In this document: positions 17,992-49,421 of the stretch, in pieces
Numbering within the stretch: the stretch's first letter is position 1
Layout: the number at the start of each line of letters is the position of its first letter
NCBI RefSeq assembly: GCF_014647115.1
Contig: NZ_BMOO01000002.1
Span: 124,001-188,000 of the forward strand
From: Halarchaeum rubridurum
GTDB lineage: Archaea > Halobacteriota > Halobacteria > Halobacteriales > Halobacteriaceae
Length of the DNA stretch: 64,000 nt
Direction of reading: 5' to 3'
The notes under the pieces: model-generated
Told to the model about the DNA's origin: nothing
What the model saw: only the letters and a program-made list of their open reading frames with translations
Databases searched by the model: none
Translations under genes and position numbers: made by a program

Positions 17992-17993
17992 GT

Positions 17994-18009: not shown

Positions 18010-18036
18010 CGAACGCTTAACGCTTCCGGGTTCGGC

Positions 18037-29100: not shown

Positions 29101-29103
29101 ATT

Positions 29104-29119
29104 TTTAGGTTGGCCTAAA
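29104..29119. promoter_or_regulatory. Iron-box palindrome B, TTTAGG-N4-CCTAAA (spacer TTGG)
   Basis: Perfect half-sites, upstream of the DoxX gene and the small membrane protein gene that follows it. It lies in the 189-base gap between the DoxX start and the end of the halocyanin gene, in an AT-rich patch (ATTTTTAGG ... AAAGAATAA) within very GC-rich DNA. Confidence 0.75.
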
Positions 29120-29164
29120 GAATAATAGGCGTTCGGATCGGACGAGCGGGACGACGGGCGGCGG

Positions 29165-30994: not shown

Positions 30995-31150
30995 GACACG
31001 CTCGTCGGCGCAGAGCGCGTAGACGGTGCTGTTCGCGGTCCAGCGCCCGAGCGCGCGGAGGACGCGGTAGGTCGTCGACGACCGAATCGCCGCCGCGAGG
31101 TCCACACGGGCACGTCGCGCGCCGCGGACAAAACCGTACACGGTTCTCAC
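30842..31150 (-). CDS. Small membrane protein coupled to a glycosyltransferase gene
   Basis: Protein of 102 residues from GTG 31150, overlapping the glycosyltransferase stop by four bases. The first 55 residues are basic and polar (VYGFVRGARRARVDLAA; STTYRVLRALGRWTANS). Two closely spaced hydrophobic stretches follow (LLGGLAAFVLVSVVSVLASSL and FLSFLLLAALVALVV). The four-base overlap and conserved-looking helices support a real gene. Its last 153 bases overlap the 3' end of the convergent membrane-protein gene, which is unusual. No family is recognised. Confidence 0.6.
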   Translation of the reverse strand: MRTVYGFVRGARRARVDLAAAIRSSTTYRVLRALGRWTANSTVYALCADERVLLGGLAAFVLVSVVSVLASSLGAAVKFLSFLLLAALVALVVQRRLDALAE

Positions 31151-32512: not shown

Positions 32513-33445
32513 ATGGACGCCCGTTCGCGCCTGTCGCGTGCGCTCGGTACCCCGCGGCTCTTCTTGCGCCACGCGAACCGGCTCTACCACCGCCGCTGTG
32601 GCCTGCGGAGCCACGACACCGCCGGCGACGACCCCTTCGACGCCGACTGGGACACGCTCGTGCTCCTCGACGGCTGTCGCTACGACACGTTCGCGCGCCG
32701 CGCCGACCTCCCGGGGACGCTCGAACGCCGACGCTCGCCAGCGGCCTCGACAGTCGAGTTCCTCCGCGCGGCCGTCGACGGCCGCGACCTCCGCGACACC
32801 GTCTACGTCACCGCGAACCCACAGCTCCGCCAGCACGACGACGTCGAGGCGAACTTCCACACCGTCGTCGACGTCTGGCGCGAGGACGGCTGGGACGACG
32901 AGACCGGGACGGTGCTCCCGGAGACGATGACGGCGTACGCCCGCGAGGCCGCCCGCGACTACCCGGAGAAGCGCCTCGTCGTCCACTACATGCAGCCCCA
33001 CTACCCCTTCGTCGAGGCCGACACGACGTTCGACAAGGGCCACCTCGACGGGTCCGTCGGCGGCGAGAACGTCTGGAACCGCCTGCTCGCCGGTGACGTC
33101 GACGTCGCGCCCGACGAGGTCAGACGGTTCTACGCGGAGAACCTCGACCGCGCGCTCCCGCACGTCGCCGCGCTCCTCGACGCCCTCGACGGCCGGACGG
33201 TCGTCACCGCCGACCACGGCAACATGCTCGGCGAGCGCTCGTTTCCCATCCCGTTCCGCGAGTGGGGCCACCCGCGCGGAATCTACACGGACGAGCTCGT
33301 CGCCGTCCCGTGGCTCGTCGTCGAGGGCGACGAGCGCCGCACGATCACCCGTGGTGAGCAGACGGCCGACGGCGAGCGCGAGGGCGAGCGCGCCGACGAC
33401 GCGGTCGTGCGAGAGCGCCTGCGCGACCTCGGTTACGCCGAATGA
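32513..33445 (+). CDS. Sulfatase / alkaline-phosphatase-superfamily-like protein
   Basis: Protein of 310 residues. The core shows metal-site signatures of the superfamily: WDTLVLLDGCRYDTF near residue 48 (the first Asp motif with Cys or Thr as potential nucleophile), HYMQPHYPF near 165, and VVTADHGNMLGE near 235 followed by EWGHP. These correspond to the DxxR, His and DHGxxxGE sites of sulfatases and phosphoglycerol transferases. No signal peptide or membrane helix is visible, so it probably acts inside the cell. It overlaps the next glycosyltransferase gene by four bases, so transfer or removal of sulfate or phosphate groups on a glycan precursor is likely. The exact reaction is unknown. Confidence 0.75.
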   Translation: MDARSRLSRALGTPRLFLRHANRLYHRRCGLRSHDTAGDDPFDADWDTLVLLDGCRYDTFARRADLPGTLERRRSPAASTVEFLRAAVDGRDLRDTVYVTANPQLRQHDDVEANFHTVVDVWREDGWDDETGTVLPETMTAYAREAARDYPEKRLVVHYMQPHYPFVEADTTFDKGHLDGSVGGENVWNRLLAGDVDVAPDEVRRFYAENLDRALPHVAALLDALDGRTVVTADHGNMLGERSFPIPFREWGHPRGIYTDELVAVPWLVVEGDERRTITRGEQTADGEREGERADDAVVRERLRDLGYAE

Positions 33446-34692
33446 CCCTCGACCTCGGCTTCCTCCACCCGACGTATCCCGCGAGCGAGGGGACGGGCGC
33501 GTCGCACAGCGCCACCCGAATCGTCGCCGAGGTGGCGGCGCGCGGCCACGACGTCACCGTCTACTGCCGCGAGGCACCCGGGGACGACGCGGCCGCGCCC
33601 GCGGGCACGACGCTCCGCTCGCTCGACCGCTCGGGCTACCCCTACCACACCGGCCAGCAGTTCGACCGCGCGCTCCGCGACGCCCGCGACGACCTCGCCG
33701 GTCACGACGTCGTCCACAGCTACGTCATGAACGCCCTCCCGGCGCTCGGCGCCCTCGCGCGCGAGACGGACACCGCGACCGTCCTAACGCTGAACGCCTA
33801 CGGGGCCGTCTGCCCGAAGAACGACCTCCGGTACATGGACCGCGAGCCCTGCGCGTCGAACGGCCCGGCGAAGTGCGCGGCGTGCGCGCTCGCCACGAGC
33901 CCCGGCCACGACGAGTACGGCGCGGCGTACCGCGCCGCGAGCCGCCTGGGGTACCTCGACCTCGTCCGCCGCGGCGAGCGCGTCGCCGACGACATCGACG
34001 CCTACCACGCCCTCTCGGGGCACATCGAGGCGACGTACGGGGAGTTCGGCTTCCCCACGGAGCGCTTCGCGGTCGTCCCGAACCTCCTCGACGAGCGCTT
34101 CGACCGCCCCCACGAGAGCGGCTTCGAGCCGCCGTACGACCTCCTCTACGTCGGCTCGCTCGACGAGCACAAGGGCGTCGACCGTCTCGTCCCCGTCCTC
34201 GCGCGGCTGAACGAGCGCGCCGGGGCGGACTACCGGCTGACCGTCGTCGGCGACGGCGGCCTGCGCTCCGACATCGAGGCGCGGGCGGCCGAGGCGGGGC
34301 TCGGGGACGCCGTGACGTGCACCGGCTGGGTGGCGAACGAGGACCTCCCCGGGGTCTTCGCGCGCCACGACTGCTTCCTCTACCCCGGCCGGTGGGACGA
34401 GCCGTTCGGACGGGTGTTCCTCGAAGCTCTCGGGACCGGCACCCCCGTGGTGGCGACGGACGTCGGGAGCGTCGCGGACATCGTCGGCGCGGGCGGGCGC
34501 GTCGTCGACGGCGGCGCGGACGCGCTCGCCGCGGGCGTCCGGGAGCTCGCCGCCGACGGGTTCGAGCGGGCGTCGCGGGCCGCGCGCGAGCGCGTCGACG
34601 ACTACCGGCCCGAGGCGGTCGTCCCGCAGTTCCTCGCGCTCTACGAGCGGGCGCGCGAGCGGGCGGCAGAGAGGGCGACGGAAGCGTCGTAG
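33442..34692 (+). CDS. GT4-family glycosyltransferase
   Basis: Protein of 416 residues, GT-B fold. Notable parts are the N-terminal HPTYPASEGTGASHSATRIV loop, a cysteine-bearing segment CPKNDLRYMDREPCASNGPAKCAAC (residues about 115-145) that could bind zinc, DLLYVGSLDEHKGVDRLV, and the donor motif RWDEPFGRVFLEALGTG. Four closely spaced cysteines in the acceptor lobe occur in a subset of GT4 enzymes and are not needed for catalysis in most. It is coupled to the sulfatase-like gene. The stop lies 34 bases from the end of the convergent ABC exporter gene. Confidence 0.87.
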   Translation: MTLDLGFLHPTYPASEGTGASHSATRIVAEVAARGHDVTVYCREAPGDDAAAPAGTTLRSLDRSGYPYHTGQQFDRALRDARDDLAGHDVVHSYVMNALPALGALARETDTATVLTLNAYGAVCPKNDLRYMDREPCASNGPAKCAACALATSPGHDEYGAAYRAASRLGYLDLVRRGERVADDIDAYHALSGHIEATYGEFGFPTERFAVVPNLLDERFDRPHESGFEPPYDLLYVGSLDEHKGVDRLVPVLARLNERAGADYRLTVVGDGGLRSDIEARAAEAGLGDAVTCTGWVANEDLPGVFARHDCFLYPGRWDEPFGRVFLEALGTGTPVVATDVGSVADIVGAGGRVVDGGADALAAGVRELAADGFERASRAARERVDDYRPEAVVPQFLALYERARERAAERATEAS

Positions 34693-34726: not shown

Positions 34727-36529
34727 CTAGTCGCGGCGTTGTGCGCCGTAGAGGTCGGCGTAGACGCCGTCGCCCTCCACGAGCTCCGCATGCTGGCCGG
34801 ATTCGACGACCCGGCCGTCCGCGAGCGCGTAGATGCGGTCGGCGTTGCGGACGGTCGAGAGCCGGTGGGCGACCGTGAGGACGACGTAGTCGCGCTCCAT
34901 CGACTCGATGGCGCGCTGGACGTCGCGTTCGAGCCGGGAGTCGAGGTCGCTCGTCGCCTCGTCGAGCACGAGCACGTCCGCGTCCGCGAGGAGGGCGCGG
35001 GCGAGCGCGACGCGCTGTTTCTGCCCGCCGGAGAGCCGGACGCCGTCGTCGCCGAGTCGCGTCTCGTACCCGTTCGGGAGGTCGTCGAGGAACTCGTCGA
35101 CGCGCGCGAGCTCGCAGACGCGTTCGAGGGCCGCGTCCGTCGCGTCGCGGTCGGCGAGCGTGAGGTTGTAGCGCAGCGTGTCGTCGAAGACGTACGGGTC
35201 CTGGCGGACGACGGCGACGTGCTCGCGCCACCCGTCGATGGGCATCTCGGTGATGGGCGTCCCGTTCGCGCGTATCGCGCCGCCGTCGGGGTCGTAGAGG
35301 CGCGCGAGGAGGGAGACGATGGTGGACTTCCCCGCGCCCGAGGAGCCGACGAACGCGACGAACTCCCCGGCCTCGACGGTGAAGCTCACGCCGTCGAGGA
35401 CCGGCGCGCCGTCGTCGTAGGCGAACGTCACGTCGTCGAACGACACCGAGGTCACGCGCTCGGGGACGGCCGCCGTCCCGTCGTCGGGTTCGGCGTGGCG
35501 GTCGAGCTCCTCGGTGAACGCCCGCGTGCGAACGAGGTGCGGGAGGTCGTTCTCGACCTGATAGCGGAGTTCGTGGGCGCGACTCGCCTTCGGGCCGAGG
35601 CGGAACGCCGCGAAGAGGAAGAGCCCGAGCGAGCCGAGGCTCAGTTCGGCGTACGTGAGCGCGGCGTAGACGAGACCGAAGACGGAGACGGCGACGGCGA
35701 ACTGATAGCAGTTCGTGATCGCCGCCTCGTTGCGCCGCAGGGTGATTCGGGCGTCGGTGTAGCGCTCGACCGCCGCGCGGAAGGTGTCGTACACCTCCTC
35801 GCGGAGGCCGAAGAGCCGGACGTCGCGGATGCCCTGTGTCCCGGCCTGAGCGGCCGACTGACGTTGCTCGTTCGCGTCCGCGACGGCCGCGCCGACGTCG
35901 TAGCCGGAGTCGACGACGCGGTGGACGACGAGCGTCACGCCCCCGAGGACGACGGCGGTGGCGACGGTGAGCGTCGGGGAGACGAGGAGCGCGATGAGTC
36001 CGTAGGCGAACGCGAGCATCGACTGCTCGACGAAGAGGACGACGCGTTTGATGACGCGGCCGGCGTAGAACGTCTGCGTGACGAGGGCGTTCAGCACGTC
36101 GTCGGAGCCCGCCTCGTCGTAGTAGGCGATGCGGGCGTCGAGGGCGCGCTCGAACGCGCGCAACTGGAGGTCCCGGACGTAGTACGTCCGCAGCGCCTCG
36201 CGGAGCCACGCGACGAGGAAGCTCGACGCGAAGCGGACGGCCATCACGACGGCGACGCCGGCGACGGCCGTGCCGAGCGTGAGCGGAACGCCGACCGCGC
36301 GGTACGCCCGGACGAAGAGGCCACCGATGCCGTCCGTCGCGGGCTGTCCCTCGGTGCCGACGAGCTCGATAATCGGGAGGATGAAGCTCAGCCCGACGCC
36401 TTCGAGGACCGCCGCGAGGAGGCCGAGGGCGACGATTCCGGCGGTGAGACGGGGGCTGTACGCGGCGACGCCGAGGAGCGCGTCGAGTTTCTCCCGGCGC
36501 GTCGCGCCCGGGGCGTCGTCGTCGCTCAT
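34727..36529 (-). CDS. ABC exporter, fused membrane and ATP-binding domains (MsbA-like)
   Basis: Protein of 600 residues, a half-transporter. Six membrane helices occupy about 25-320 (LTAGIVALGLLAAVLEGVGLSF as the first). The ATPase domain has Walker A GSSGAGKST, Q-loop VRQDPYVFDDTLRYN, signature LSGGQKQRVALARALL, Walker B VLVLDEATSDLD and switch His in VAHRL. It should work as a homodimer exporting lipids, glycolipids or other hydrophobic compounds. Its neighbours are glycosyltransferases, so a lipid-linked sugar is one candidate. The siderophore operon begins 1.4 kb away, so siderophore export is another possibility, but no iron box precedes this gene. ATG 36529 starts the acidic MSDDDAPG N-terminus. 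Confidence 0.9.
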   Translation of the reverse strand: MSDDDAPGATRREKLDALLGVAAYSPRLTAGIVALGLLAAVLEGVGLSFILPIIELVGTEGQPATDGIGGLFVRAYRAVGVPLTLGTAVAGVAVVMAVRFASSFLVAWLREALRTYYVRDLQLRAFERALDARIAYYDEAGSDDVLNALVTQTFYAGRVIKRVVLFVEQSMLAFAYGLIALLVSPTLTVATAVVLGGVTLVVHRVVDSGYDVGAAVADANEQRQSAAQAGTQGIRDVRLFGLREEVYDTFRAAVERYTDARITLRRNEAAITNCYQFAVAVSVFGLVYAALTYAELSLGSLGLFLFAAFRLGPKASRAHELRYQVENDLPHLVRTRAFTEELDRHAEPDDGTAAVPERVTSVSFDDVTFAYDDGAPVLDGVSFTVEAGEFVAFVGSSGAGKSTIVSLLARLYDPDGGAIRANGTPITEMPIDGWREHVAVVRQDPYVFDDTLRYNLTLADRDATDAALERVCELARVDEFLDDLPNGYETRLGDDGVRLSGGQKQRVALARALLADADVLVLDEATSDLDSRLERDVQRAIESMERDYVVLTVAHRLSTVRNADRIYALADGRVVESGQHAELVEGDGVYADLYGAQRRD

Positions 36530-36671: not shown

Positions 36672-37775
36672 ATGAGGCTTGTCGATGAGGACGGCCGGCT
36701 GTTCGGCCGCGTCAACGTCGTCGACGCCGCCGTCGTCCTCGTCGTCCTCGCCGCCGTCGTCGCTGGCGCCGTCGCGGTCGTCCCGCTCGGTGGTGGGGGT
36801 GAGCCCGCGACGCGCTACGCGACCGTCGACCTCGGGACACAGTCGCCCGCGACGGCCGAGCGCATCGATGCCGGCGACCGCTCCGCGGACGAACGCGTCG
36901 TCGTCACGGACACGTACGTCGGTCCCGCCGGGGACGGCGCGAACGCGTCCGTCGTCGTCCGCGTTCGGGTGAACGGCACGCTGCGCGACGGCGGCGACGA
37001 ACGCGTCTTCGAGCGCGACGGCGAGCCGCTGCGCCGCGGCGATGGCTTCGCGTTCGAGACGTCGAGCTACGCCGTCGCGGGCGACGTCCTGCGCGTCGAG
37101 GAGGCGGGGACGACGCTGCCCGTGGGTTCGCTCCCGGTCCTCCTCGAAGCGACGCTGTCGCCGGCCACCGCGGACGCCGTCGCGGTCGGCGACGCGTTCC
37201 GACTCGACGACCGGCGGATCGCGCGCGTCACGGGCGTCACGACCGCCCCGGTCGAGAACGGGACGGCGCGGCGGGCGCTGCTCGGCGTGCGCCTGCACAC
37301 CCTGAACCGCTCCGGGAGCACGTACTTCGGGGCGACGCCCGTGCGGCTCGGCGGGTTGCTGCGCTTCGACACCGACCAGTACGCCCTGCGCGGGACGGTG
37401 ACGCGGTGGGGGAACGCCTCGCCGCCGGGATCGCCGACGACGACGACCGCGGTCGTCTCGCTCGCGGACGTCGACCCGGCGGTCGCGGACGGCCTCCGGG
37501 CCGGGCTGACCGAGCGCCGCGACGGCCGGACGACGGCGCGAATCACGGCCGTCCGCACGGAGAACGCGACGGTGGTGCTCACGAGCGACGACGGCCACAT
37601 CTACGAGCGCGAACACCCCGAGAACGTGGACGTCCACCTCACCGTCGACCTCCGGACGCGCGCGACCGCGGACGGCCTCCGGTTTCACACGCGCGCGCTC
37701 CGCGAGGGGACGCGCGTGACGTTCGACTTCCGGACGGTGACGGTCGACGGCACCGTCACGCGCATCCGCGGGTAG
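36672..37775 (+). CDS. DUF4330-family membrane-anchored protein
   Basis: Protein of 367 residues. The start MRLVDEDGRLFGRVNVVDAA followed by one membrane helix (VVLVVLAAVVAGAVAVVPL) is the hallmark of DUF4330 proteins. The rest is an extracellular region of about 320 residues rich in beta-strand patterns, with repeated units around ATVDLGTQSPATAER and HTLNRSGSTYFGATPVRLGG. Members are widespread in haloarchaea and cyanobacteria and have no known function. It diverges from the ABC exporter over 142 bases and ends 51 bases before iron box D. Confidence 0.8.
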   Translation: MRLVDEDGRLFGRVNVVDAAVVLVVLAAVVAGAVAVVPLGGGGEPATRYATVDLGTQSPATAERIDAGDRSADERVVVTDTYVGPAGDGANASVVVRVRVNGTLRDGGDERVFERDGEPLRRGDGFAFETSSYAVAGDVLRVEEAGTTLPVGSLPVLLEATLSPATADAVAVGDAFRLDDRRIARVTGVTTAPVENGTARRALLGVRLHTLNRSGSTYFGATPVRLGGLLRFDTDQYALRGTVTRWGNASPPGSPTTTTAVVSLADVDPAVADGLRAGLTERRDGRTTARITAVRTENATVVLTSDDGHIYEREHPENVDVHLTVDLRTRATADGLRFHTRALREGTRVTFDFRTVTVDGTVTRIRG

Positions 37776-37826
37776 GGGGCCGAAGCACCTCACACAATCG
37801 GTGCGCGGGTCCCGAGCGCAACCCTT

Positions 37827-37842
37827 TTCAGGTCAGCCTAAA
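37827..37842. promoter_or_regulatory. Iron-box palindrome D, TTCAGG-N4-CCTAAA (spacer TCAG)
   Basis: One mismatch from the consensus. It is the only candidate operator before the siderophore operon and lies 88 bases before ATG 37931. The box is followed by an A-rich run (CCTAAAAAATACTGG) and preceded by TTTT, so it overlaps the likely promoter. Confidence 0.7.
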
Positions 37843-37859
37843 AAATACTGGTGAGAACC

Positions 37860-37934
37860 GTGAACGGAGCATCGACACCGGCCCGTCGCGCCGGCGGGCG
37901 GCGAGCGGGTGGACGCACCCGCGGGGCGACATGA
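37860..37934 (+). CDS. Possible 24-residue leader ORF of the siderophore operon
   Basis: A short frame from GTG 37860 (or GTG 37851 nine bases earlier) ends in TGA at 37932-37934, which overlaps the ATG of the acetyltransferase gene as ATGA. The predicted peptide is Arg/Gly-rich and has no similarity I know. Only the promoter distance and the ATGA overlap support it. It could instead be untranslated leader. Confidence 0.2.
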   Translation: MNGASTPARRAGGRRAGGRTRGAT

Positions 37935-38512
37935 CCTGTCCCCGGGAGACCGTCGGGTCGACGTACAGCTACCGGACGGTCGCCGACTCGGGCGCCGAAC
38001 TCGGCTTCCGCGAGGTGTCGCTCGACCGGGACCTCGGTCGGCTACACGCGTGGCTGAACAGCGACCACGTGCTGCCCTACTGGCAGCAGGACGACCCGCT
38101 TCCCCAGGTCCGCGACACGATACGCGAACGCGCCGCCGACGAGACCCAGACGCTCTACGTCGGCTACCGCGACCACGTCCCGATGAGCTACTGGGAGTCC
38201 TACTGGGCGGCCCACGACCGCCTCGCCGACCACTACGACGCCGACCCCGGCGACCAGGGCATCCACCTGCTCATCGGCCCGACGGAGTACCTCGGACGTG
38301 GCTACGCCGCGCCGCTCATCCGCGCGATGGTCGACTTCCAGTTCCAACACCCCGAGACGACCCGAGTCGTCACGGAGCCGGACGCCCGCAACGAACGCGC
38401 CATCCGCGCGTTCGCGGCCGCGGGGTTCGAGCGCCGCGGCGAGATCGAGTTCCCCGACAAGACCGCCCAGTTCATGGTCCGAGAACGCGAGACGGGCGCG
38501 GCCGATGAGTGA
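37931..38512 (+). CDS. Siderophore-type N-acyltransferase (IucB-like, Acetyltransf_8 GNAT)
   Basis: Protein of 193 residues. The C-terminal GNAT domain carries the hallmarks of the siderophore acyltransferase branch (IucB, MbtK): IHLLIGPTEYLGRGYAAPLI with His112, TEPDARNERAIRAFAAAGF with Asp151, and the closing FPDKTAQF. His and Asp at these places act on the hydroxylamine substrate in characterised members. IucB acetylates N6-hydroxylysine to make a hydroxamate. This gene is the first in an operon with a flavin N-monooxygenase (eight-base overlap), the standard hydroxamate pair. The acyl donor and the amine (lysine, ornithine, diaminobutane or diaminopropane derivative) are not decided by sequence. 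Iron box D lies upstream. Confidence 0.85.
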   Translation: MTCPRETVGSTYSYRTVADSGAELGFREVSLDRDLGRLHAWLNSDHVLPYWQQDDPLPQVRDTIRERAADETQTLYVGYRDHVPMSYWESYWAAHDRLADHYDADPGDQGIHLLIGPTEYLGRGYAAPLIRAMVDFQFQHPETTRVVTEPDARNERAIRAFAAAGFERRGEIEFPDKTAQFMVRERETGAADE

Positions 38513-39869
38513 GGACGCGTACGACCTCGTCGGCGTCGGCGTCGGCCCGTTCAACCTCGGGCTCGCCGCCCTCCTCGACGACGTCGATGCGGACTGCGAC
38601 GCCGCCTTCCTCGAACAGCGTGCCGCGTTCGACTGGCACGAGGACATGCTCATCGAGGGAACGACGCTCGAAGTGCCGTTCCTCGCCGACCTCGTCACGA
38701 TGGTCGACCCGACGAACCCGTACAGCTACCTCAACTATCTGCGCGCACAGAACCGCCTCTACGAGTTCTACTTCTACGAGGAGTTCTTCCTCCCGCGTCG
38801 CGAGTACAACGACTACTGTCGGTGGGTGGCCGAGCGCCTCCCGTCGCTTCGCTTCGGCCGACGCGTCACCGAAATCGGCGTCGCAGCGGACGGCGAGACG
38901 TATCGGCTCGCGGCCGTCGACCCCGAGACGGGCGAGCGCGAGACGTACCTGGCGGAGAACGTCGTCGTCGGCATCGGCACGCGCCCGCACGTCCCGGACC
39001 GGTTCGCGGACGTCCTCGGCGACGACGTCTTCCACACGGCGAGCTACCTCGGCAACCGGGAGCGGTGTCTGGACGCCGAGCGCGTCACGGTCGTCGGCTC
39101 CGGGCAGAGCGCCGCCGAGGTCGTCCGCGACCTCCTCGAACGCCAGCCCGAGGGCGGCTACGCGCTCGACTGGCTCACCCGCTCGCGCGGCTTCTTCCAG
39201 ATGGCCGACGCCAAGCTCGGCCACATGATCTACACGCCCGACTACACGGACTACTTCTACGACCTCGATCAGGAGACGAAGGACGAACTCCGTGAGGGTC
39301 AGGACCTCCTCTACAAGGGAATAGACGAGCGCACGAGCGCCGAAATCTACGACCTGCTCTACGAGGGGTCGGTGGGCGACGCCGAGCCTGACGTCGGGAT
39401 GCTCGCCGCGACCGAGGTGCGCGAACTCGGTCCCGCGCCCGACGGCGAGGGGTACGCCCTCCTCTGCGAGCAGTGGCAGGAGAACGAGCGTTTCGTCCAG
39501 GAGAGCGACGTCGTCGTCCTCGGGACGGGGTACGAGCGCGTCGAGCCGCCGTTCGCCGCGGGGCTCGCCGACCGCCTCGCGCGCGACGACGCGGGGCGAC
39601 TCGACGTCACCCGCGACTTCCGGCTGACGGGGACGGACCTCCCCGGGGAACTCTACGTCCAGAACGCCGAAATCCACACGCACGGAATCAACGCGCCCGA
39701 CCTCGGGCTCGGTCCGTACCGGAACGCGGTGATCCTCGACGACCTGCTCGCCGACTCGCCCTACGGCACCGAACTCGCCGACGTCTTCCAGAGCTTCTCC
39801 GTCGACGACTACCTCGAACGCCGCGAGAGCGCCCGCCGGGTCGCGTCCCCCCCAAACCCCGACGCCTAG
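38505..39869 (+). CDS. Flavin-dependent amine N-hydroxylase (lysine/ornithine N-monooxygenase, IucD-like)
   Basis: Protein of 454 residues, usual for the class. The FAD site is GVGVGPFNLGLAALL near residue 9, and HEDMLIEGTTLEVPFLADLV with DPTNPYSYLNYL matches the conserved substrate-side region. The NADPH site is VVGSGQSAAEVVRDLL near 190, and VVLGTGYERVEPPF is the DxxxL/FATGY-type C-terminal motif. The enzyme adds oxygen to a primary amine side chain, giving an N-hydroxy amine that the IucB-like enzyme can acylate. Haloarchaeal and bacterial IucD act on lysine, but diamine hydroxylases look alike, so the substrate is open. The stop is one base before the next gene. Confidence 0.9.
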   Translation: MSEDAYDLVGVGVGPFNLGLAALLDDVDADCDAAFLEQRAAFDWHEDMLIEGTTLEVPFLADLVTMVDPTNPYSYLNYLRAQNRLYEFYFYEEFFLPRREYNDYCRWVAERLPSLRFGRRVTEIGVAADGETYRLAAVDPETGERETYLAENVVVGIGTRPHVPDRFADVLGDDVFHTASYLGNRERCLDAERVTVVGSGQSAAEVVRDLLERQPEGGYALDWLTRSRGFFQMADAKLGHMIYTPDYTDYFYDLDQETKDELREGQDLLYKGIDERTSAEIYDLLYEGSVGDAEPDVGMLAATEVRELGPAPDGEGYALLCEQWQENERFVQESDVVVLGTGYERVEPPFAAGLADRLARDDAGRLDVTRDFRLTGTDLPGELYVQNAEIHTHGINAPDLGLGPYRNAVILDDLLADSPYGTELADVFQSFSVDDYLERRESARRVASPPNPDA

Positions 39870-39870
39870 C

Positions 39871-41775
39871 ATGGTCGGGCTCTCGGGGGTCGTCGGTGCG
39901 GATGCCGGCGCGGTCGAGGTCGACACCGTCCCCGCCACCGTCGACGACGAGGTGCGCGCCACCCACCGGGCGGACGGCGTCGCGGTCCGCACGGCGTTCC
40001 ACCGAGGCGCGAGCGTCGAACAGCCCGTCACCGCGCCCGACGGCGCGCTCGTCTGGGTCTGGGGCGAGGTGTACGCCGTCGGGACGGGCGACGACCGCGA
40101 GCGCGTCGACCCGCGCGAGACCGCGCGCGTCTGCGCCGCCGAATCGGCCGCGCACGGCCGGTCGTTCCCCGACCGCCTCGACGGGGAGTTCGCCGGCGTC
40201 CGCTACGACCCCGAGACGGGGCGCGCCACGCTCTTCACGGACCGCCTCGGCGCGCGCCCGCTCTACTACGCCGTGGGCGACGACGCCCTCGCCTTCTCGA
40301 CGAGCGTCCAGCGCGTCCCGGAGGTCGACGGCGCGACGTTCGCCTTCGATTCCGACTTCCTCGCCGAGTACCTCTACGCGCGCCGGACGTTCGGCGCGCG
40401 GACGCCGATAGCGGGAGTCGACCAGCTCGCGCCCGCGACGACCGTCGCGTACGACCCGACGGACGGTCGTCTCGACGAGCGGCGCTACTGGGCGCCCCGA
40501 TACCGGCCGGTGGAGCGCCCGCTCTCGCACTACGTGGACGAGCTCGCGGAGCGCTTCGCGGCCGCCGTCGCCGACCGCACGGCGGACGACCGGACCGCGG
40601 GCCTGCTGTTGAGCGGCGGGAGCGACTCGCGGGCGGTGCTCGCGGCCGCGGGAACGGACGCGCGCGCTGGCGTGGGAGCGGACGCGACGGAGAGCGAGAG
40701 CACGAGCGCGGGCCGAGGGGAGCGTATCCGCACCTACCACATGAACGACGGGTGGAACCGCGAGGCGCGAATCGCGCGGCGCATCGCCGACGCGGCGGAC
40801 GCGCCGTTCACGCTCCTCGAACGCGGGCCGTCGTACCACGAGACGCTCCTGGAGCGCGCCGCGCCGATTCAGGAGTTCATCGGACCGTTCAACACCGGGC
40901 ACGCGCTCGGGTTCGCGGACCGGCTCGCGGGCGACGTCGACGTCCTGCTCACCGGCCTCTACAGCGACTCGCTCTTCGGGCCGTGGAGTATCCCCTCACC
41001 CGAGATTCCGCTGCCGTACGGCGCGAGCCTCCCGCTCCCCCTCGCCGACCTCCCCGGAAGCGTCGACGAGTACGCCGCCGCGCAGGCGGCCTCGCAGCCG
41101 GCGCGCGACCCGGACTACCTCGACGCGCCGCCGCTCGCCGACCTCGTTCGCGAGCACGTCCGCGAGGGCGTCACGTCGCTCGACCACCACGGCGTCGTCC
41201 ACCCGGACGTCGAGTCTCTCGTCCTGAGCGAGTTCTACTACCCGATCACGAACGGCATCGGCTTCGACCTCTACAGCGCGCTCCAAATCGCACCGACGCG
41301 CAACCCCTTCCTCGACCGGCGGCTCGTCGACCTCCACCTCGAAATCCCCCTGCGATACCGCCTCAGACACGACCTCGTCGCGCTCGCGCTCGAACGCCTC
41401 GACGAGGCGCTGGCGGCGATTCCGCACCCGAGCACGCGACTCCCGCTCACCGCGCCGCACCTCGCGCACGTCGCCGCCGCGCCCGCGTCGAGTCTCGTCG
41501 ACAGGCTCCGCGACGGCGGCGACTCGTATCTGACGTGGGGGCCGTGGCAGGACAAGGACGCGTTGCTCCGCGGGCACGACTTCGTCGGCGACGCGCTCCG
41601 CGAACACGACGCCGTCCTCCGCGGGCTCCCGGGCGTCGACGCCGACGCCGCGTGGGAGACGTATCGGCGTCACCGCGCGGGCGAGGTCGACGCGGCCGAG
41701 GAGCTCTATCGCCTCCTCACGGTCGCGTCGATGCCGATGGCGGCGCGACTCGTCGGCGACGGCGGCGAAAAGTAG
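39871..41775 (+). CDS. Asparagine-synthetase-like ATP-dependent amide ligase without glutaminase cysteine
   Basis: Protein of 634 residues with two domains. Residues 1-200 have the Ntn-hydrolase fold of asparagine synthetase B (GATase_7-like: LDGEFAGVRYD, FTDRLGARPLYYA), but the catalytic Cys2 of MCG is replaced (MVGLSGVVG), so it cannot use glutamine. Residues 215-634 form the synthetase domain with the PPi-loop LLLSGGSDSRAV at 246-256, which activates a carboxylate with ATP. Loss of Cys is also seen in beta-lactam synthetase and lasso-peptide cyclase, which join an amine to an activated acid. As third gene in the hydroxamate operon, it is the best candidate for assembling hydroxamate units by amide bonds. 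Substrates are unknown, and I know of no described siderophore route that uses this enzyme type. Confidence 0.8.
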   Translation: MVGLSGVVGADAGAVEVDTVPATVDDEVRATHRADGVAVRTAFHRGASVEQPVTAPDGALVWVWGEVYAVGTGDDRERVDPRETARVCAAESAAHGRSFPDRLDGEFAGVRYDPETGRATLFTDRLGARPLYYAVGDDALAFSTSVQRVPEVDGATFAFDSDFLAEYLYARRTFGARTPIAGVDQLAPATTVAYDPTDGRLDERRYWAPRYRPVERPLSHYVDELAERFAAAVADRTADDRTAGLLLSGGSDSRAVLAAAGTDARAGVGADATESESTSAGRGERIRTYHMNDGWNREARIARRIADAADAPFTLLERGPSYHETLLERAAPIQEFIGPFNTGHALGFADRLAGDVDVLLTGLYSDSLFGPWSIPSPEIPLPYGASLPLPLADLPGSVDEYAAAQAASQPARDPDYLDAPPLADLVREHVREGVTSLDHHGVVHPDVESLVLSEFYYPITNGIGFDLYSALQIAPTRNPFLDRRLVDLHLEIPLRYRLRHDLVALALERLDEALAAIPHPSTRLPLTAPHLAHVAAAPASSLVDRLRDGGDSYLTWGPWQDKDALLRGHDFVGDALREHDAVLRGLPGVDADAAWETYRRHRAGEVDAAEELYRLLTVASMPMAARLVGDGGEK

Positions 41776-41810: not shown

Positions 41811-41874
41811 GCTTTCGTCTCCGTTCCCGTTTCCGTTCCCGTTCCCGTCCGCATCCCCGTTCTCGTCCCCGTCA
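41811..41874. repeat. Degenerate pyrimidine-rich hexamer repeat (TTCCCG-like)
   Basis: About ten imperfect copies of a T/C-rich hexamer (CCGTTC, CCGTTT, CCGTCC and similar) fill the gap between the siderophore ligase gene and the convergent ABC transporter ATPase gene. The run continues three bases into the last codons of the ATPase gene. It may have grown by slippage and may help end transcription from either side. Confidence 0.6.
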
Positions 41875-43020
41875 GCGTTCGAACCACTGGAGCGGGTGGT
41901 CCGCGACGACGTCGACGGTGACGGGCTGACCGACCTCGAAGAGCTCCGTGTGGTTGTGCATGCAGCGGACGCTGTCGCCCTCGGTGGTCTCGACGCGATA
42001 GACGAACGACGGGCCCTGATACTGGCGCTGCGTGAGACGACCGTCCGCGGTCGTCCCGTCGGCGGCGGGGCGTGCCTGCAGGTCGTCGGGGCGGACGAGC
42101 ACGTCGACCGTCGTGCCGTCGGGGAGGTCGAGTCCGGGGAAGTGCGTGGCGTCGAGGCGGCCGATGTCGGTCTCGACGGCGTCGCCGTCGACGCGGCCCG
42201 TGAGGAAGCCGGCCTGCCCGAGGAAGGACGCGACGAAGCGCGACGACGGGCGCTCGAAGATTCGCTCGGGGCGGCCGATCTGCTGGAGGCGGCCGTCGTT
42301 CATCACGCCGACGCGGTCGGCGATGGAGAGCGCCTCCTCCTGGTCGTGCGTCACCCAGATGGCGGTGACGCCGGTCTCGTCGATGATGCGGCGCATCTCC
42401 TCGCGCATCGAGACACGGAGCGCGACGTCGAGGTTCGAGAGCGGTTCGTCAAGGAGGAGGACGTCCGGCTCGGGGGCGAGCGAGCGCGCGAGCGCGATAC
42501 GCTGTTTCTGCCCGCCGGAGAGTTCCTCGGGGTGGTGGTCGGCGTGGTCGCCGAGGCCGACGAGGTCGAGCAGTTCGTCGACGCGCGCCTCGCGCTCCGC
42601 GGCCGGCCGGTCGCCGATGCCGAACGCGACGTTCTCGGCGGCGCTCAGGTGGGGGAAGAGCGCGAAGTCCTGGAAGACGAGGCCGATGTCGTGCTCCTCG
42701 GGCGGGACGAAGACGCCGCCCTCGGGGTCGGCGAGCGTCCGGTCGTCGAGGGTTATCGTGCCGGCGTCGGCGCGTTCGAGGCCCGCGACCATCCGCAGGG
42801 TCGTGGTCTTGCCACAGCCCGAGGGGCCGAGGAGCGCGAGGATTTCGCCGTCGGCCACGGACATCGAGAGGGCGTCGACGGCGGTCTCGGGGCCGTACGT
42901 CTTCGTGAGCCCGGAGAGGTCGAGGACGGTCCCCGTGGCCGCGGCGTCGTCGGCGTCGCTGTCGTCCGCTGCGGGCGATGCGTCGGATGCGTCGGTGCGG
43001 TTGTGAGTCGTGCGTGACAT
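41872..43020 (-). CDS. ABC transporter ATP-binding protein, ferric-iron type (FbpC-like)
   Basis: Protein of 382 residues. After an acidic N-terminal extension of about 30 residues comes the nucleotide-binding domain: Walker A GPSGCGKTT, Q-loop LVFQDFALFPHLSAAENV, signature LSGGQKQRIALARSLA, Walker B VLLLDEPLSNLD and switch His in THDQEEA. A C-terminal TOBE-type domain (about 280-382) ends with VRCMHNHTELFEVGQPVTVDVV. This architecture is shared by iron(III), spermidine/putrescine and thiamine importers. Gene order (binding protein, fused permease, ATPase) and iron box E before the first gene favour iron. The acidic extension is probably a halophilic addition. Confidence 0.9.
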   Translation of the reverse strand: MSRTTHNRTDASDASPAADDSDADDAAATGTVLDLSGLTKTYGPETAVDALSMSVADGEILALLGPSGCGKTTTLRMVAGLERADAGTITLDDRTLADPEGGVFVPPEEHDIGLVFQDFALFPHLSAAENVAFGIGDRPAAEREARVDELLDLVGLGDHADHHPEELSGGQKQRIALARSLAPEPDVLLLDEPLSNLDVALRVSMREEMRRIIDETGVTAIWVTHDQEEALSIADRVGVMNDGRLQQIGRPERIFERPSSRFVASFLGQAGFLTGRVDGDAVETDIGRLDATHFPGLDLPDGTTVDVLVRPDDLQARPAADGTTADGRLTQRQYQGPSFVYRVETTEGDSVRCMHNHTELFEVGQPVTVDVVADHPLQWFER

Positions 43021-43023
43021 GGA

Positions 43024-44670
43024 TTATTTCTCCTGCGAGAGGATGACGACCATCGAGAGCGCGGAGACGACGATGAGGACGAACGCGGGGATGGCGGCCG
43101 CGCCGTAGCTTCCGGACTCGCGGACCGCCCAGATGTAGGTGACGAGGGTGTCGAACCCCGTCGGCTGGAGCAGCAGCGTCGCCGGGAGCTCCTTCATCGT
43201 CGTGAGGAAGACGAGCGCGGCACCCGCGAACACGCCGGGGGCGATGAGGGGGAGCGCCACCCGGCGAAACGCGCCGAGCGGGGACTCCCCGAGGAGGCGC
43301 GCGGCCTCGGTCAGCTCGCGGTCGACGCGCATCACCGAGGAGCGCGTGGCACCGACGGACTGGGGGAGGAAGCGCACGACGTACGCGAATATCAACAGCG
43401 GGAGCGTCTGGTAGAGCGTCGGCAGGTACGAGGCGGCCCCGATGACCGACGAGAGGTCGTCGACGGCGGCACCGTAGGAGACGCCGAAGAACACCAGCGC
43501 GAGGCCGAGGACGATGCCGGGCATCGCGTAGCCGATGTAGGTCGCGCGGTCGATGAGCTCCGCGACCGTCGAGCGGTGGCGGGCGGCGAGGTAGGCGACG
43601 GGGATCGCCGCGAGCGCGCACGCCACCGCCGCGGCCACGGAGACGAGCACGGAGTTGCTCGCGTACGACCACTCGAAGACGAGTCGCGTCCGACCGATGG
43701 CGGAGCTGCCGCGGCGGAACCAGACGAACAGCACGCCGAGGGGGACGACCAGACACATCGTGACGACGCTCGCGCAGAAGGCGAGCGCGGGGGCCTTCCA
43801 GCGGCCGAGCGCGACGGTCGTGTCGCTCGTACTCGCGCGCGTGCCGACGTACGCGCCCTGCGTGGAGTCGCCGACGCGGGACTGCAACGCGAGGATGACC
43901 GCGGTGATGGTGAGGAGCTGAAGGGAGAGCATCGCGGCCGTCTCGCGGCCGAAGCCGTTGAACTCCACCCAGATGGCCTGCGTGAGCACTTCGAGGCGGA
44001 GGAGGTTCGGCGTCCCGAAGTCAGAGAGCGCGTAGAGCGCGACGAGCAGCGCCCCCGAGGCGATTCCGGGGACGAGCTGCGGGAGGGTGACGCGGCGGAA
44101 GGCCTCGATACGCGAGACGCCGAGGGTGCGTGCGGCCTCGACGAGCGACTCGTCGAAGGAGAGCAGCGACGCCCGCGTGGTGATGAACACGTAGGGGAAC
44201 GTGTAGAGCGTGAGGACGAGGGCGACGCCGCCGAAGCCGTAGACGGACGGGACGGAGTCGACCCCGAGGGGCGCGAGCAGGTCGGCGATGTAGCCGCTGG
44301 GGCCGAACGCGGAGATGTAGGTGAACGCCCCGAGATAGCTGGGGATGACGAGCGGGAGCGCGACGGCGATGGTCCAAAAGCGCCGGAACGGGAGGTCCGT
44401 CCGGACGGTGAGGAAGGCGAGGGGGACACCGAGGACGACGGAGGCCCCGGTGACGACGGCGACGAGCGCGATGCTCGTGGCGAACGTCGAGGGGTGGGTC
44501 AGGAGCGACGGCCCGCCCTCGGCTTCGAGGACGCGGAGGAGTATCCACGCGATTGGGGACAGCACCGCCGCGGCAATCGCGCCGCTCAGCAGGACGAGCG
44601 CGGTCGGGAGCCCCGAGTCTCGCGAGCGCGCGCGAGCGAACGGTGCCACGAGCCGGTCGAGGGCCGACAT
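43024..44670 (-). CDS. ABC transporter permease, two fused halves (FbpB/SfuB-like)
   Basis: Protein of 548 residues with about 12 membrane helices in two homologous halves. Each half carries an EAA-type loop: SLVEAARTLGVSRIEAFRRVTLP in the first and ELTEAARLLGESPLGAFRRVALPL in the second, where the ATPase docks. Fused double permeases are typical of ferric-iron importers of the FbpB/SfuB group and of the related ThiP. It lies one base after the binding-protein gene and three bases before the ATPase gene, a compact operon. Confidence 0.9.
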   Translation of the reverse strand: MSALDRLVAPFARARSRDSGLPTALVLLSGAIAAAVLSPIAWILLRVLEAEGGPSLLTHPSTFATSIALVAVVTGASVVLGVPLAFLTVRTDLPFRRFWTIAVALPLVIPSYLGAFTYISAFGPSGYIADLLAPLGVDSVPSVYGFGGVALVLTLYTFPYVFITTRASLLSFDESLVEAARTLGVSRIEAFRRVTLPQLVPGIASGALLVALYALSDFGTPNLLRLEVLTQAIWVEFNGFGRETAAMLSLQLLTITAVILALQSRVGDSTQGAYVGTRASTSDTTVALGRWKAPALAFCASVVTMCLVVPLGVLFVWFRRGSSAIGRTRLVFEWSYASNSVLVSVAAAVACALAAIPVAYLAARHRSTVAELIDRATYIGYAMPGIVLGLALVFFGVSYGAAVDDLSSVIGAASYLPTLYQTLPLLIFAYVVRFLPQSVGATRSSVMRVDRELTEAARLLGESPLGAFRRVALPLIAPGVFAGAALVFLTTMKELPATLLLQPTGFDTLVTYIWAVRESGSYGAAAIPAFVLIVVSALSMVVILSQEK

Positions 44671-44671
44671 C

Positions 44672-45952
44672 CTACAGCGCGCCCACCTCTCGGAGCAGCT
44701 CGAGGGTCGGCTGGACGTTCGCCAGCGTGCTCAGGTCGAGTTCGGGCGGATTGAGCTGGTCGATGGTCGGGAGGTTGCCGATGGGCGGCACGCTGGAGAG
44801 GAGCGGATAACCGAAGCCGCGGGTCCCGAGGAACTCCTGGAGCTCGATGGAGAGGAGGTGGTGGATGAAGTTCGCGGCCGTCTCGGGGTTGGAGCTGTTC
44901 TTGATGACCTGCGCGCCGGAGCAGTTGACGAGCGCGCCGGCGTCGTTCTGCGTGAAGGCGAGTTCGAGCGGGGCGTCGGGACGCTCCTCGTAGACCAGCC
45001 GCGAGTAGTAGTGATTCGAGAAGCCGGCGGAGAGTTCGCCCGTGGCGACGGCGTTCGCCACCTGGAACTCGTTTCCGTACTTCCTGACGCCGTGGGCCTG
45101 CATCGCTTCGAGCCACTGCTTGGTCGCCTCGCGGCCGTTGAGCTCGCGCATCGCGGTGATGAACGCCTGGAACGCGCCGTAGGTCGGTGCCCACCCCATC
45201 TCGTCCTCGAACCGGGGGTCGTCGGGGAACGCGGCGACCTCGTTCGGTATCTCGTCGGCGTCGAAGGCGTTCGTGTTGAACGGAATCGAGCGCGCCCGGC
45301 CCATGATTCCGACCCACTCGTCGGTCGGGTGGTAGGTGTCCGGGACCGATTGGGTGACGTGGTCGGGGAGGGTGACCGTCGCGCCGTTCTCGGCGACGAC
45401 GCCGACGGAGCCGGCGTCGATGGCCCAGAAGACGTCCGCGGGGCTCTGGCCGGCGTTCGCCTCCTCGATGATGGTGTTGGCGAGCTGCGAGGAGGAGGCC
45501 GGGCGGATGTAGACGGTGAAGTCCCGGTAGAGGTTCTGGATGCGCTGCATCGCCTCCTGATAGAGGCCGCCCTCACCGCCGCCGAGGTAGACCGTTATCT
45601 CCCCGCGGAGGTTGGGGAGGTCGAGCACCGACAGCCCGGTGTACTCGTTGGGGCGCTCGCCGACCTGCGGGCCGTCGCCGCGCCACTCGTCCATGTGGAA
45701 GAGTTCGTCCTCCGTGTACGTCTTGGGCGCGGGGACGTCCGACGTCGAGGTCGACGTCGCGGAGTCGCCGTCCGCGCTCGTCTCGCTCGTCGTTTCGCCG
45801 CCGCCACCGCCGCCGCTACAGCCGGCGAGTCCGAGGAGACCCGCGCTCGCCCCGACGGCCTGCAGGAACGAGCGGCGGTCACCGACGGCGCTGCGGACGC
45901 GAGAGCGCCCGCTCCGGTCGTCGTCGATTCCGTCGCGCGTAGATGGGTCCAT
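44672..45952 (-). CDS. Ferric-iron-type ABC substrate-binding lipoprotein (FbpA-like)
   Basis: Protein of 426 residues. DRRSFLQAVGASAGLLG precedes the lipobox LAGC near residue 46, followed by Gly and Ser/Thr/Asp linkers. The binding domain resembles group-D proteins of the FbpA/spermidine type: EITVYLGGGEGGLYQEAMQR, then VYIRPASSSQLANTIIEE, DVFWAIDAGSVGVVAENGA and, near the end, GAQVIKNSSNPETAANFIHHLLS. The usual C-terminal tyrosine pair of classical FbpA is not obvious, so the metal may be held by other residues or as a chelate. Iron box E 11 bases before the start fits iron import. I chose ATG 45952, because the upstream part of the frame lies in the promoter. Confidence 0.85.
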   Translation of the reverse strand: MDPSTRDGIDDDRSGRSRVRSAVGDRRSFLQAVGASAGLLGLAGCSGGGGGGETTSETSADGDSATSTSTSDVPAPKTYTEDELFHMDEWRGDGPQVGERPNEYTGLSVLDLPNLRGEITVYLGGGEGGLYQEAMQRIQNLYRDFTVYIRPASSSQLANTIIEEANAGQSPADVFWAIDAGSVGVVAENGATVTLPDHVTQSVPDTYHPTDEWVGIMGRARSIPFNTNAFDADEIPNEVAAFPDDPRFEDEMGWAPTYGAFQAFITAMRELNGREATKQWLEAMQAHGVRKYGNEFQVANAVATGELSAGFSNHYYSRLVYEERPDAPLELAFTQNDAGALVNCSGAQVIKNSSNPETAANFIHHLLSIELQEFLGTRGFGYPLLSSVPPIGNLPTIDQLNPPELDLSTLANVQPTLELLREVGAL

Positions 45953-45963
45953 GTCGTAATGTG

Positions 45964-45979
45964 TTTTGGGTCGCCTAAA
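45964..45979. promoter_or_regulatory. Iron-box palindrome E, TTTTGG-N4-CCTAAA (spacer GTCG)
   Basis: One mismatch in the half-site nearest the gene. It overlaps a minus-strand TATTTTAG centred about 27 bases before the FbpA-like ATG (45952), so it covers the TATA element of the ferric-iron transporter operon. Confidence 0.7.
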
Positions 45980-46166
45980 ATAGCTTTCCGATTGGGGACG
46001 TGCGCCCGGAGCACGTGACGGGCGCGCGGGCCTCGGGGCGAGTATCGCCAAGACGCGACGGCCGCGGACGACCCGCCCCGAGGCCCGCGATTTCGTGGCG
46101 GAGGGGGTGTCGGCGAGGCCGACGTACCGCCAGGGGGCGGTCGGGCGCGAAACAGCACCCTTTTAA

Positions 46167-46182
46167 TTTAGGTGTGCCTAAA
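46167..46182. promoter_or_regulatory. Iron-box palindrome F, TTTAGG-N4-CCTAAA (spacer TGTG)
   Basis: Perfect half-sites, 21 bases before ATG 46204 of the sugar transferase gene. A TTTTAATTTA stretch at 46161-46170 is a likely TATA element that runs into the box. Boxes E and F flank the 251-base gap between two divergent genes, one beside each gene. Confidence 0.75.
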
Positions 46183-46203
46183 CGGAGCGAAGACGAAGCG
46201 CCG

Positions 46204-47637
46204 ATGCACGACGCGACACACACACGCCGGGCACTTCGAGTCCTCGGAACGACGCTGTTCACGACGCTCGCCGTCCTCCTCGCCAACGCCGCGCCGGTCC
46301 AGACCGCCCTCGCCCGACTTCCCGGGTCCCGGTTCGTCGCGCTCTCCTTCGGCGGCGTCGGCCTGCTCGCCCGCCTCGGCGCGGCGCTCATCGTCACGGT
46401 GCTCGTCGTCCACGCGCTCCGCGAACCGGGCGCGCGACGGCCCCACGAGACCGCCGCCGCGACGCTCCGCGCGCTCGGCGTCGCCGCGCTCGCGCTCGCA
46501 GCGCTCGGCTATCTCGACGTCCCGTACCGACTCCCGCGGACCACGCTCGTCGGCACCGTCGCCGTCCTCGCCGTCCTCCTCCCCGCGTGGTTCGTCGCCC
46601 TCGACCGGGGGCGGAACCGGGAGGGGGGAACGTTGGTCGTCGGTGCCGACCCGCGCCAGATTTCGACCGCGCTGGAGGCGACCACGCGCCCCGTCGTCGG
46701 CTACGCGTCCGCCGTCTCGTGGCCCAGCGGGCCGGCCGCCGACAGGCAGGTCGACACGGACGGCGGCGACGACTCCGTGGCGACCACGCTCGCCGAGCAC
46801 GAGCGCCTCGGCGGGCTCTCCCGGCTCGACGACCTGCTCGCGGACGCTGACGTCGACACCGTCGTCCCCGCCCTCCCGCACGCCGACCGCGCGGAGTTCT
46901 TCGGCATCCTCGACGTCTGCCGGCGACACGGCGTCGCGGTCTCCGTCCCCGAAGACCACGGCGGCGACGTCCTCCTCGCGGCGGACGGGAGCCCCGAGCG
47001 CCAGCCCGGGTTCGACCGCATCGACCTCGAACCGTGGGGCGTCGGCGCTCGACTCGGCAAGCGCGCCTTCGACGTCTGTTTCGCCGCGCTCGTCCTCTGT
47101 GCGACGCTCCCCGTCCTCGCCCTCGCGGCACTGGCGGTCACGTCGGAGGACGGCGGGCCGGTCTTCTACACGCAGGAGCGCACGACCCTGTTCGGCGACA
47201 CCTTCGACGTCTACAAGTTCCGGACGATGCGCCCGGCGAGCGAGTCCGCGACACCCGGCGACGACGGCGACCGCATCACTCGCGTCGGGCGGCTGTTGCG
47301 ACGGACGCACGTCGACGAGCTCCCGCAGTTCTGGGCCGTCCTCCGCGGTCGGATGAGCGTCGTCGGTCCGCGCGCGGCGTGGACGGACGAGGAGGAACTC
47401 CTCCTCGCGGAGACGAGCGCGTGGCGCAAGCGCTGGTTCGTCAAGCCGGGGCTCACGGGGCTCGCACAGCTCCACGACGCGTCGAGCGAGGTGCCAAAGG
47501 AGAAGGTTCGCTACGACGTCGAGTACATCCGCCGGCGCTCGCTCGCGCTCGACGCGGCCATCGTCGCGCGACAGCTGTGGCGGGTCCTCGCCGAAGTCGG
47601 AGCCCTCGCCGCCGACGCGTGCCGGCGCGACGACTGA
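46204..47637 (+). CDS. Polyprenyl-phosphate sugar transferase (bacterial initiating glycosyltransferase type)
   Basis: Protein of 477 residues. Four N-terminal membrane helices (about 10-140) are followed by a CoA-binding-like cytoplasmic domain. A fifth helix (KRAFDVCFAALVLCATLPVLAL) precedes the catalytic bac_transf domain with GPVFYTQERTTLFGDTFDVYKFRTM, DELPQFWAVLRGRMSVVGPR and VKPGLTGLAQLH. Enzymes of this family move a sugar-1-phosphate onto a polyprenyl phosphate to start a surface glycan. The presence of a perfect iron box before it is unexpected and suggests iron-dependent surface glycosylation or capsule synthesis. The lipid carrier in archaea would be dolichyl phosphate. Confidence 0.88.
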   Translation: MHDATHTRRALRVLGTTLFTTLAVLLANAAPVQTALARLPGSRFVALSFGGVGLLARLGAALIVTVLVVHALREPGARRPHETAAATLRALGVAALALAALGYLDVPYRLPRTTLVGTVAVLAVLLPAWFVALDRGRNREGGTLVVGADPRQISTALEATTRPVVGYASAVSWPSGPAADRQVDTDGGDDSVATTLAEHERLGGLSRLDDLLADADVDTVVPALPHADRAEFFGILDVCRRHGVAVSVPEDHGGDVLLAADGSPERQPGFDRIDLEPWGVGARLGKRAFDVCFAALVLCATLPVLALAALAVTSEDGGPVFYTQERTTLFGDTFDVYKFRTMRPASESATPGDDGDRITRVGRLLRRTHVDELPQFWAVLRGRMSVVGPRAAWTDEEELLLAETSAWRKRWFVKPGLTGLAQLHDASSEVPKEKVRYDVEYIRRRSLALDAAIVARQLWRVLAEVGALAADACRRDD

Positions 47638-49299: not shown

Positions 49300-49304
49300 A
49301 CGGG

Positions 49305-49320
49305 TTTAGGCTAGCCTAAA
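49305..49320. promoter_or_regulatory. Iron-box palindrome G, TTTAGG-N4-CCTAAA (spacer CTAG)
   Basis: Perfectly symmetric even in the spacer, so the full 16 bases form an uninterrupted palindrome. It ends five bases before ATG 49299. A T-rich minus-strand stretch just beyond it (49318-49326) gives the TATA element at about 25 bases. Confidence 0.8.
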
Positions 49321-49421
49321 AATTACTAAAGTGTTACGATACTGAGAGCGAAAAGCCGCGCGTCCGCCTCGCGGCGGGAACGCTCGCGGCCGCGGCTATC
49401 GTCCGATACTTACCAACCGGT

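Follow-up and report, generated by a model that had tools for sequence, protein, structure and literature searches.

A predicted asparagine-synthetase-fold ligase in place of an IucA/IucC synthetase in a putative iron-regulated hydroxamate operon of Halarchaeum rubridurum

A window of 64,000 nucleotides from Halarchaeum rubridurum (contig NZ_BMOO01000002.1, positions 124,001 to 188,000 of the forward strand) contains a three-gene operon at 37931-41775 encoding a putative hydroxylamine N-acyltransferase of the GNAT family, a diamine N-hydroxylase and a protein with the fold of asparagine synthetase B (AsnB). Hydroxamate siderophores are usually assembled by nonribosomal peptide synthetases (NRPSs) or by NRPS-independent siderophore (NIS) synthetases. 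In this operon the AsnB-fold ligase probably takes the place of a NIS synthetase and forms the amide in a hydroxamate pathway predicted to be regulated by iron. The comparison of sequences and genomes supports the gene identities, the iron boxes, the replacement of IucA/IucC and the co-conservation of glycan and importer genes with the trio. The operon and its regulatory site are as follows.

37826-37843, plus strand: DtxR/SirR-type iron box before the operon (31 bits with a position weight matrix; palindrome ahead of the GNAT gene in 8 of 8 loci), sequence TTTCAGGTCAGCCTAAAA
37931-38512, plus strand: IucB/MbtK-type hydroxylamine N-acyltransferase (GNAT), 193 amino acids (PF13523, 3.6e-53; PDB relatives BH2621, MbtK and DfoC; His112, Asp151)
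38505-39869, plus strand: IucD/DesB-type diamine N-hydroxylase, 454 amino acids (PF13434, 1.4e-111; PDB matches; D399)
39871-41775, plus strand: AsnB/beta-lactam-synthetase-fold ligase without Cys2, 634 amino acids, proposed amide-forming assembly enzyme (PF00733, 1e-16; GATase_7, 5.9e-10)

The GNAT and hydroxylase open reading frames share 8 nt (38505-38512), and that of the ligase begins 1 nt past the hydroxylase stop codon, in agreement with the original prediction of three tightly packed genes, the Pfam identities of which were as claimed. The residues on which that prediction had relied were all found in the translations, namely His112 and Asp151 of the GNAT, and in the ligase MVGLSG instead of MCG together with the retained LLSGGSDS loop. 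The position given there as the start, 37827, lies in the iron box, and no gene begins at it.

The genome sample consisted of 391 haloarchaeal genomes of the class. The intact trio was found in eight genomes belonging to six families (54-93% identity), with the genes contiguous and in the same order in 8/8, which answers the earlier suggestion to look for the set elsewhere. The nearest relative of the ligase is that of Halarchaeum nitratireducens (87% identity), followed at 54-60% by those of Halosimplex pelagicum, Halorubrum saccharovorum and four other genomes. The Halarchaeum genome of the window (G000; 2.81 Mb, 99.88% complete) gave no match to PF04183 (IucA/IucC, NIS), for which E. coli and Haloferax served as positive controls, and none to PF00668 (NRPS condensation), for which the control genomes were positive. 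An IucA/IucC or NRPS gene elsewhere in this genome had been named as the test of the replacement, and by these two families none was found.

The hydroxylase family is present in 84 of the 391 genomes, and PF04183 in 75 of the 80 hydroxylase genomes tested. All five hydroxylase genomes lacking PF04183 (G000, G380, G031, G097 and G195) carry the trio (one-sided Fisher p = 8.7e-7, uncorrected for shared ancestry). Among the 73 genomes without the trio, the hydroxylase lies at most 5 kb from IucA/IucC in 72 and 9.7 kb from it in one. Seven of the eight trio genomes were included in the PF04183 test (H. pelagicum was left out), and two of these, G087 and G161, have IucA/IucC elsewhere in the genome. 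No GNAT or IucD relative was found in the 19 kb fetched around these genes, by which they were ruled out as hidden partners of the hydroxylase. Across the sample, linkage of the diamine hydroxylase was thus to one of the two, a NIS synthetase or the AsnB-like ligase, and in no case to both. The part of the original prediction that concerned replacement is supported by the genome content and by this mutual exclusion, and its chemical part stays a prediction from sequence.

The ligase shows the features of an N-type ATP pyrophosphatase, an SGGxDS PP-loop (GLLLSGGSDSR, with SGGSDSR conserved among relatives) in an Asn_synthase domain (PF00733). A profile of 18 relatives compared with the PDB matched the hydroxyamidotransferase 7ylz (8e-22), AsnB, beta-lactam synthetase and CarA. 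An enzyme of the AsnB fold is expected to adenylate a carboxylate and form an amide, and adenylating enzymes with this fold are classed apart from the NIS synthetases (PMC6594144). Relatives of the ligase occur in 68 of the 391 genomes, in a family whose annotation goes no further than asparagine synthase or asparagine synthase-related. Those with a readable N-terminus begin M-x-G, where x is never Cys; as judged from these translations, loss of Cys2 is general across the haloarchaeal family of the ligase. The trio ligases form a monophyletic clade (support 1.000) which includes second, iron-boxed AsnB-like copies in G031 (L034:8139-9962) and G087 (L036:9101-10927), these forming a subclade of their own (support 1.000). 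By analogy with IucA plus IucC, two ligases in one genome may carry out two coupling steps. The distant members of the family (L011-L033, L046-L059) also have no Cys2 and keep SGGSDSR, and some are found beside Wzx flippases, PF01663 phosphodiesterases and PF13480 FemAB-like proteins.

The closest PDB structures to the hydroxylase are SsDesB (6xbb), DfoA (5o8p) and a putrescine N-hydroxylase (7us3), with ornithine and lysine hydroxylases far behind. The rejection of ornithine by SsDesB has been explained by D391 in the pocket and by a missing carboxylate-binding Lys (PMC8009421). In pairwise alignments Asp399 of the Halarchaeum hydroxylase corresponds to D391 of SsDesB, and an Ala (in FLADLVT) occupies the position of K107 of SidA. 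The enzyme therefore has both marks of the alkyl diamine N-hydroxylases DesB, DfoA and FbsI, Asp at position 391 and no Lys at position 107. Since it looks diamine-type, N-acetyl-N-hydroxylysine, which the original prediction had put forward as a substrate for the ligase, is unlikely. After acylation the product would likely be an N-acyl-N-hydroxydiamine with one free amine; were the acyl group acetyl, it would itself lack a carboxylate, and a separate acid and a ligase would be required. A Dat gene (NF005393, above the NCBIfam cut-off) adjoins a Ddc gene in the Halarchaeum genome, away from the trio; the best match of this Ddc is L-2,4-diaminobutyrate decarboxylase, below the NCBIfam cut-off. 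In the schizokinen route of Haloferax, Dat and Ddc provide 1,3-diaminopropane (PMC7407949), and by analogy the Halarchaeum diamine is probably 1,3-diaminopropane from Dat-Ddc.

The iron-box palindrome previously placed before the operon was found at 37826-37843. Scored with a matrix trained on sites from these same loci, so that scores are inflated and significance overstated, the trio and the second ligase copies have boxes of 23-31 bits and the best site within 450 bp of 23 distant AsnB-like genes reaches 9.2 bits; about one match above 11 bits is expected per 64 kb from mononucleotide shuffles. Two facts are independent of the matrix: every one of the eight orthologous loci has the palindrome, and the distant ligase relatives lack it upstream. 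Across the eight loci, boxes precede the GNAT gene in 8/8, the gene of an iron-binding protein in 8/8, an initiating sugar-phosphate transferase gene in five and a DUF4330 gene in two (L002 and L039). The trio operon is most likely induced by iron starvation through these predicted DtxR/SirR-type boxes. Two further boxes were located downstream of the operon.

45963-45980, minus strand: iron box of the Fe(III) importer operon (position weight matrix; 8 of 8 loci)
46166-46183, plus strand: iron box of the initiating sugar-phosphate transferase (position weight matrix; also in L001, L003, L035 and L038)

Elsewhere in the window, a near-perfect box (49304-49321) lies 13 bp upstream of the gene of a secreted two-repeat protein (47869-49299, minus strand) that had no match in Pfam, NCBIfam or the PDB and was confined to the two Halarchaeum loci among the loci read. 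A strong box (29103-29120) is also found near the gene of a DoxD/DoxX-like membrane protein (28439-28975, minus strand), and another (17993-18010) lies 10 bp upstream of that of a ferric-siderophore-type Peripla_BP_2 binding protein (16792-17991, minus strand), which could serve in uptake of the trio product or of foreign siderophores.

The genes surrounding the trio, counted within the stretches fetched around the eight trio loci, encode glycan-synthesis and Fe(III)-import functions.

41872-43020, minus strand: Fe(III) ABC importer ATPase (ABC_tran and TOBE_2; adjacent in 8 of 8 loci)
43024-44670, minus strand: Fe(III) ABC importer permease (BPD_transp_1; adjacent in 8 of 8 loci)
44672-45952, minus strand: FbpA/HitA-type Fe(III)-binding protein (PDB matches to 6e-49, nearly all iron-binding proteins; 8 of 8 loci)
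46204-47637, plus strand: initiating polyprenyl-phosphate sugar-phosphate transferase (Bac_transf, WcaJ-like; PF02397, 4.3e-54; TIGR03025, 8e-76, below cut-off; 5 of 8 loci)
36672-37775, plus strand: DUF4330 membrane protein (PF14221, 2e-26; 6 of 8 loci)
34727-36529, minus strand: MsbA/PglK-like ABC exporter, putative glycan flippase (ABC_tran, 1e-31; ABC_membrane, 9e-9; 7 of 8 loci)
33442-34692, plus strand: GT4 glycosyltransferase (PF00534; 8 of 8 loci)
32513-33445, plus strand: sulfatase/alkaline-phosphatase-like protein (by eye; no Pfam match; 8 of 8 loci)
31147-32379, minus strand: GT4 glycosyltransferase (PF00534; 6 of 8 loci)
29726-30994, plus strand: PMT-like polytopic glycosyltransferase, weak match (PF13231, 1.1e-5, at cut-off; 4 loci)
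27056-28129, plus strand: GT4 glycosyltransferase of the outer cluster (PF00534, 1.9e-39; also in L035 and L037)

The importer and the Peripla_BP_2 protein correspond to the ferric-iron and ferric-siderophore uptake genes that had been reported near the trio. Proteins of the FbpA/HitA class bind ferric ion, not siderophore complexes. A GT2 gene is found in 5/8 loci, and in L003 and L038 its start codon overlaps the ligase stop codon. The gene order of the cluster shifts among lineages and the genes stay together. Relatives of the sulfatase-like gene occur in 304 of the 391 genomes and of the DUF4330 gene in 161, by which both were ruled out as exclusive to the trio; in seven loci with near relatives of the sulfatase-like gene, other glycan genes were found but no trio, Fe importer, iron boxes or full cluster. 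On the far side of the cluster an FtsX-type ABC exporter module (21676-26884, minus strand), made up of an ATPase, a 550-amino acid membrane protein and a 965-amino acid permease and present also in L034, may belong to it. Because the trio sits within this conserved cluster, a sugar acid may serve as the acid partner, and the pathway need not yield a free siderophore. Of the marks of a hydroxamate siderophore pathway, the operon has both expected genes, those of an N-hydroxylase and a hydroxylamine acyltransferase, and predicted iron boxes.

From these observations we infer the ligase reaction, its substrates and product, and how iron is passed on. The IucD/DesB-like enzyme would N-hydroxylate a diamine, probably 1,3-diaminopropane, and the GNAT would acylate the hydroxylamine to an N-acyl-N-hydroxydiamine with one free amine. 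The AsnB-fold ligase would then adenylate a carboxylate with ATP and couple it to this amine, the job done in other haloarchaea by IucA/IucC-type NIS synthetases. The acid partner would be one of two kinds: a low-molecular-weight acid, for example citrate or succinate, or a uronic acid carried by a lipid-linked glycan which the neighbouring glycosyltransferases would build and the ABC exporter would flip to the surface. The FbpA-type Fe(III) importer next to the trio would then receive the iron. The confidence placed in the replacement divides about evenly between a small-molecule acid and a glycan carboxylate, and the sequences fit both. The gene content of the cluster points towards a surface glycan, and the replacement pattern together with Dat-Ddc towards a citrate-like acid.

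Several points weigh against this assignment of the ligase. Neither the Lys nor the Glu that is catalytic in AsnB and beta-lactam synthetase could be confidently placed in the ligase family, and an AlphaFold2 model of the ligase (window protein and three orthologues) had a mean predicted local distance difference test score (pLDDT) of 34.8 and was discarded. The genome negative for PF04183 and PF00668 covers NIS and NRPS enzymes, ATP-grasp ligases and stand-alone adenylation domains not having been searched for. The replacement of IucA/IucC represents perhaps 5-6 independent lineages. As to the diamine, no such Ddc was found in four other trio genomes, the diamine of which may differ, and 1,3-diaminopropane is not used by SsDesB (PMC8009421).

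With a small acid, the product joined by the ligase would be a soluble siderophore of the usual kind, a citrate- or succinate-hydroxamate resembling schizokinen or desferrioxamine, and the glycan genes would belong to a separate response to iron starvation. This reading, a sub-case of the replacement proposed here and opposed to a glycan-bound product, is a serious possibility that falls short of being probable. It is favoured by the exact replacement of IucA/IucC, by a Dat-Ddc pair like that of schizokinen synthesis in Haloferax (PMC7407949) and by the iron-boxed siderophore-type Peripla_BP_2 protein at 16792-17991. Against it, the glycan genes have remained with the trio despite rearrangement in six families, iron boxes stand before the genes of the sugar-phosphate transferase and of DUF4330, GT2 is translationally coupled to the ligase in two loci, and the co-conserved importer is FbpA-type rather than siderophore-type. 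With a glycan carboxylate, the ligase may attach the N-acyl-N-hydroxydiamine to the carboxyls of a lipid-linked glycan, so that cells short of iron would bear a hydroxamate-carrying glycan or glycolipid on their surface, a cell-bound siderophore feeding Fe(III) to the FbpA-type importer; this version is put forward only tentatively.

The ligase might instead be a glycan-tailoring amide synthase of the large haloarchaeal family, the GNAT and the hydroxylase alone finishing a monomeric hydroxamate. The commonness of distant Cys2-less relatives (68 of 391 genomes), some near Wzx-type flippases, phosphodiesterases and FemAB-like acyltransferases, is consistent with such a role, as is the lone iron-boxed paralogue in L036. 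It is nonetheless unlikely, given the position of the ligase 1 nt behind the hydroxylase in an operon contiguous in 8/8 loci, the restriction of iron boxes among ligase clades to that of the trio, and the lack otherwise of a hydroxylase-linked synthetase in the trio genomes tested; moreover, one bidentate hydroxamate chelates poorly. That an ordinary glutamine- or ammonia-dependent asparagine synthetase lies beside a siderophore operon by chance is highly improbable and was ruled out, for although TIGR01536 is the top general NCBIfam match (2.4e-25), its score is 89.5 against a cut-off of 267, Cys2 is absent in the homologues with a readable N-terminus, and the gene context includes the iron box and operon conservation in 8/8 loci.

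The predicted replacement of a NIS synthetase by the AsnB-fold ligase sets the operon apart from the known systems it resembles. The Halarchaeum hydroxylase is closest to DesB/DfoA of the desferrioxamine pathway and keeps the diamine marker, and the GNAT is related to the DfoC acyltransferase; the ligase of that pathway, however, is the NIS enzyme DesD, and Halarchaeum has no PF04183 enzyme. DesD is itself a PF04183 enzyme. The iuc operon of Haloferax volcanii (schizokinen-type; PMC7407949) is iron-regulated, as is predicted for the trio, and likewise combines a diamine hydroxylase with a hydroxylamine acetyltransferase, and Dat and Ddc are common to both organisms; but there the ligation of citrate and amine is assigned to IucA/IucC, whereas Halarchaeum has an AsnB-fold N-type ATP pyrophosphatase and its Dat-Ddc pair is unlinked. 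The best PDB sequence match of the ligase, the hydroxyamidotransferase TsnB9/SaHAT (7ylz; PMC13418202), shares the AsnB fold, the ATP activation of a free carboxylate and a place in hydroxamate biosynthesis, with moderate similarity over part of the protein only. Unlike the proposed ligase, it moves the hydroxyamino group of glutamyl hydroxamate to give a terminal hydroxamic acid, and belongs to no siderophore pathway. Beta-lactam synthetase, CarA and lasso cyclase also have an AsnB fold without glutaminase function and form an amide from an adenylated carboxylate and a substrate amine; they differ in cyclising intramolecularly, in their unrelated substrates and in their low sequence similarity.

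The open-licence papers searched contained nothing relevant on siderophore ligases of the AsnB type or on hydroxamates bound to glycans. A natural replacement of a NIS synthetase by an AsnB-type enzyme would add a class of assembly enzyme to the NRPSs and NIS synthetases. If true, genome miners would gain a signature that is now missed, and one clade of the large asparagine synthase-related family would gain a function. Should the acceptor be a glycan, the pathway would represent a new form of archaeal cell-surface iron acquisition. In these haloarchaea iron-chelator chemistry may be built by a route, and perhaps at a site, without earlier description.

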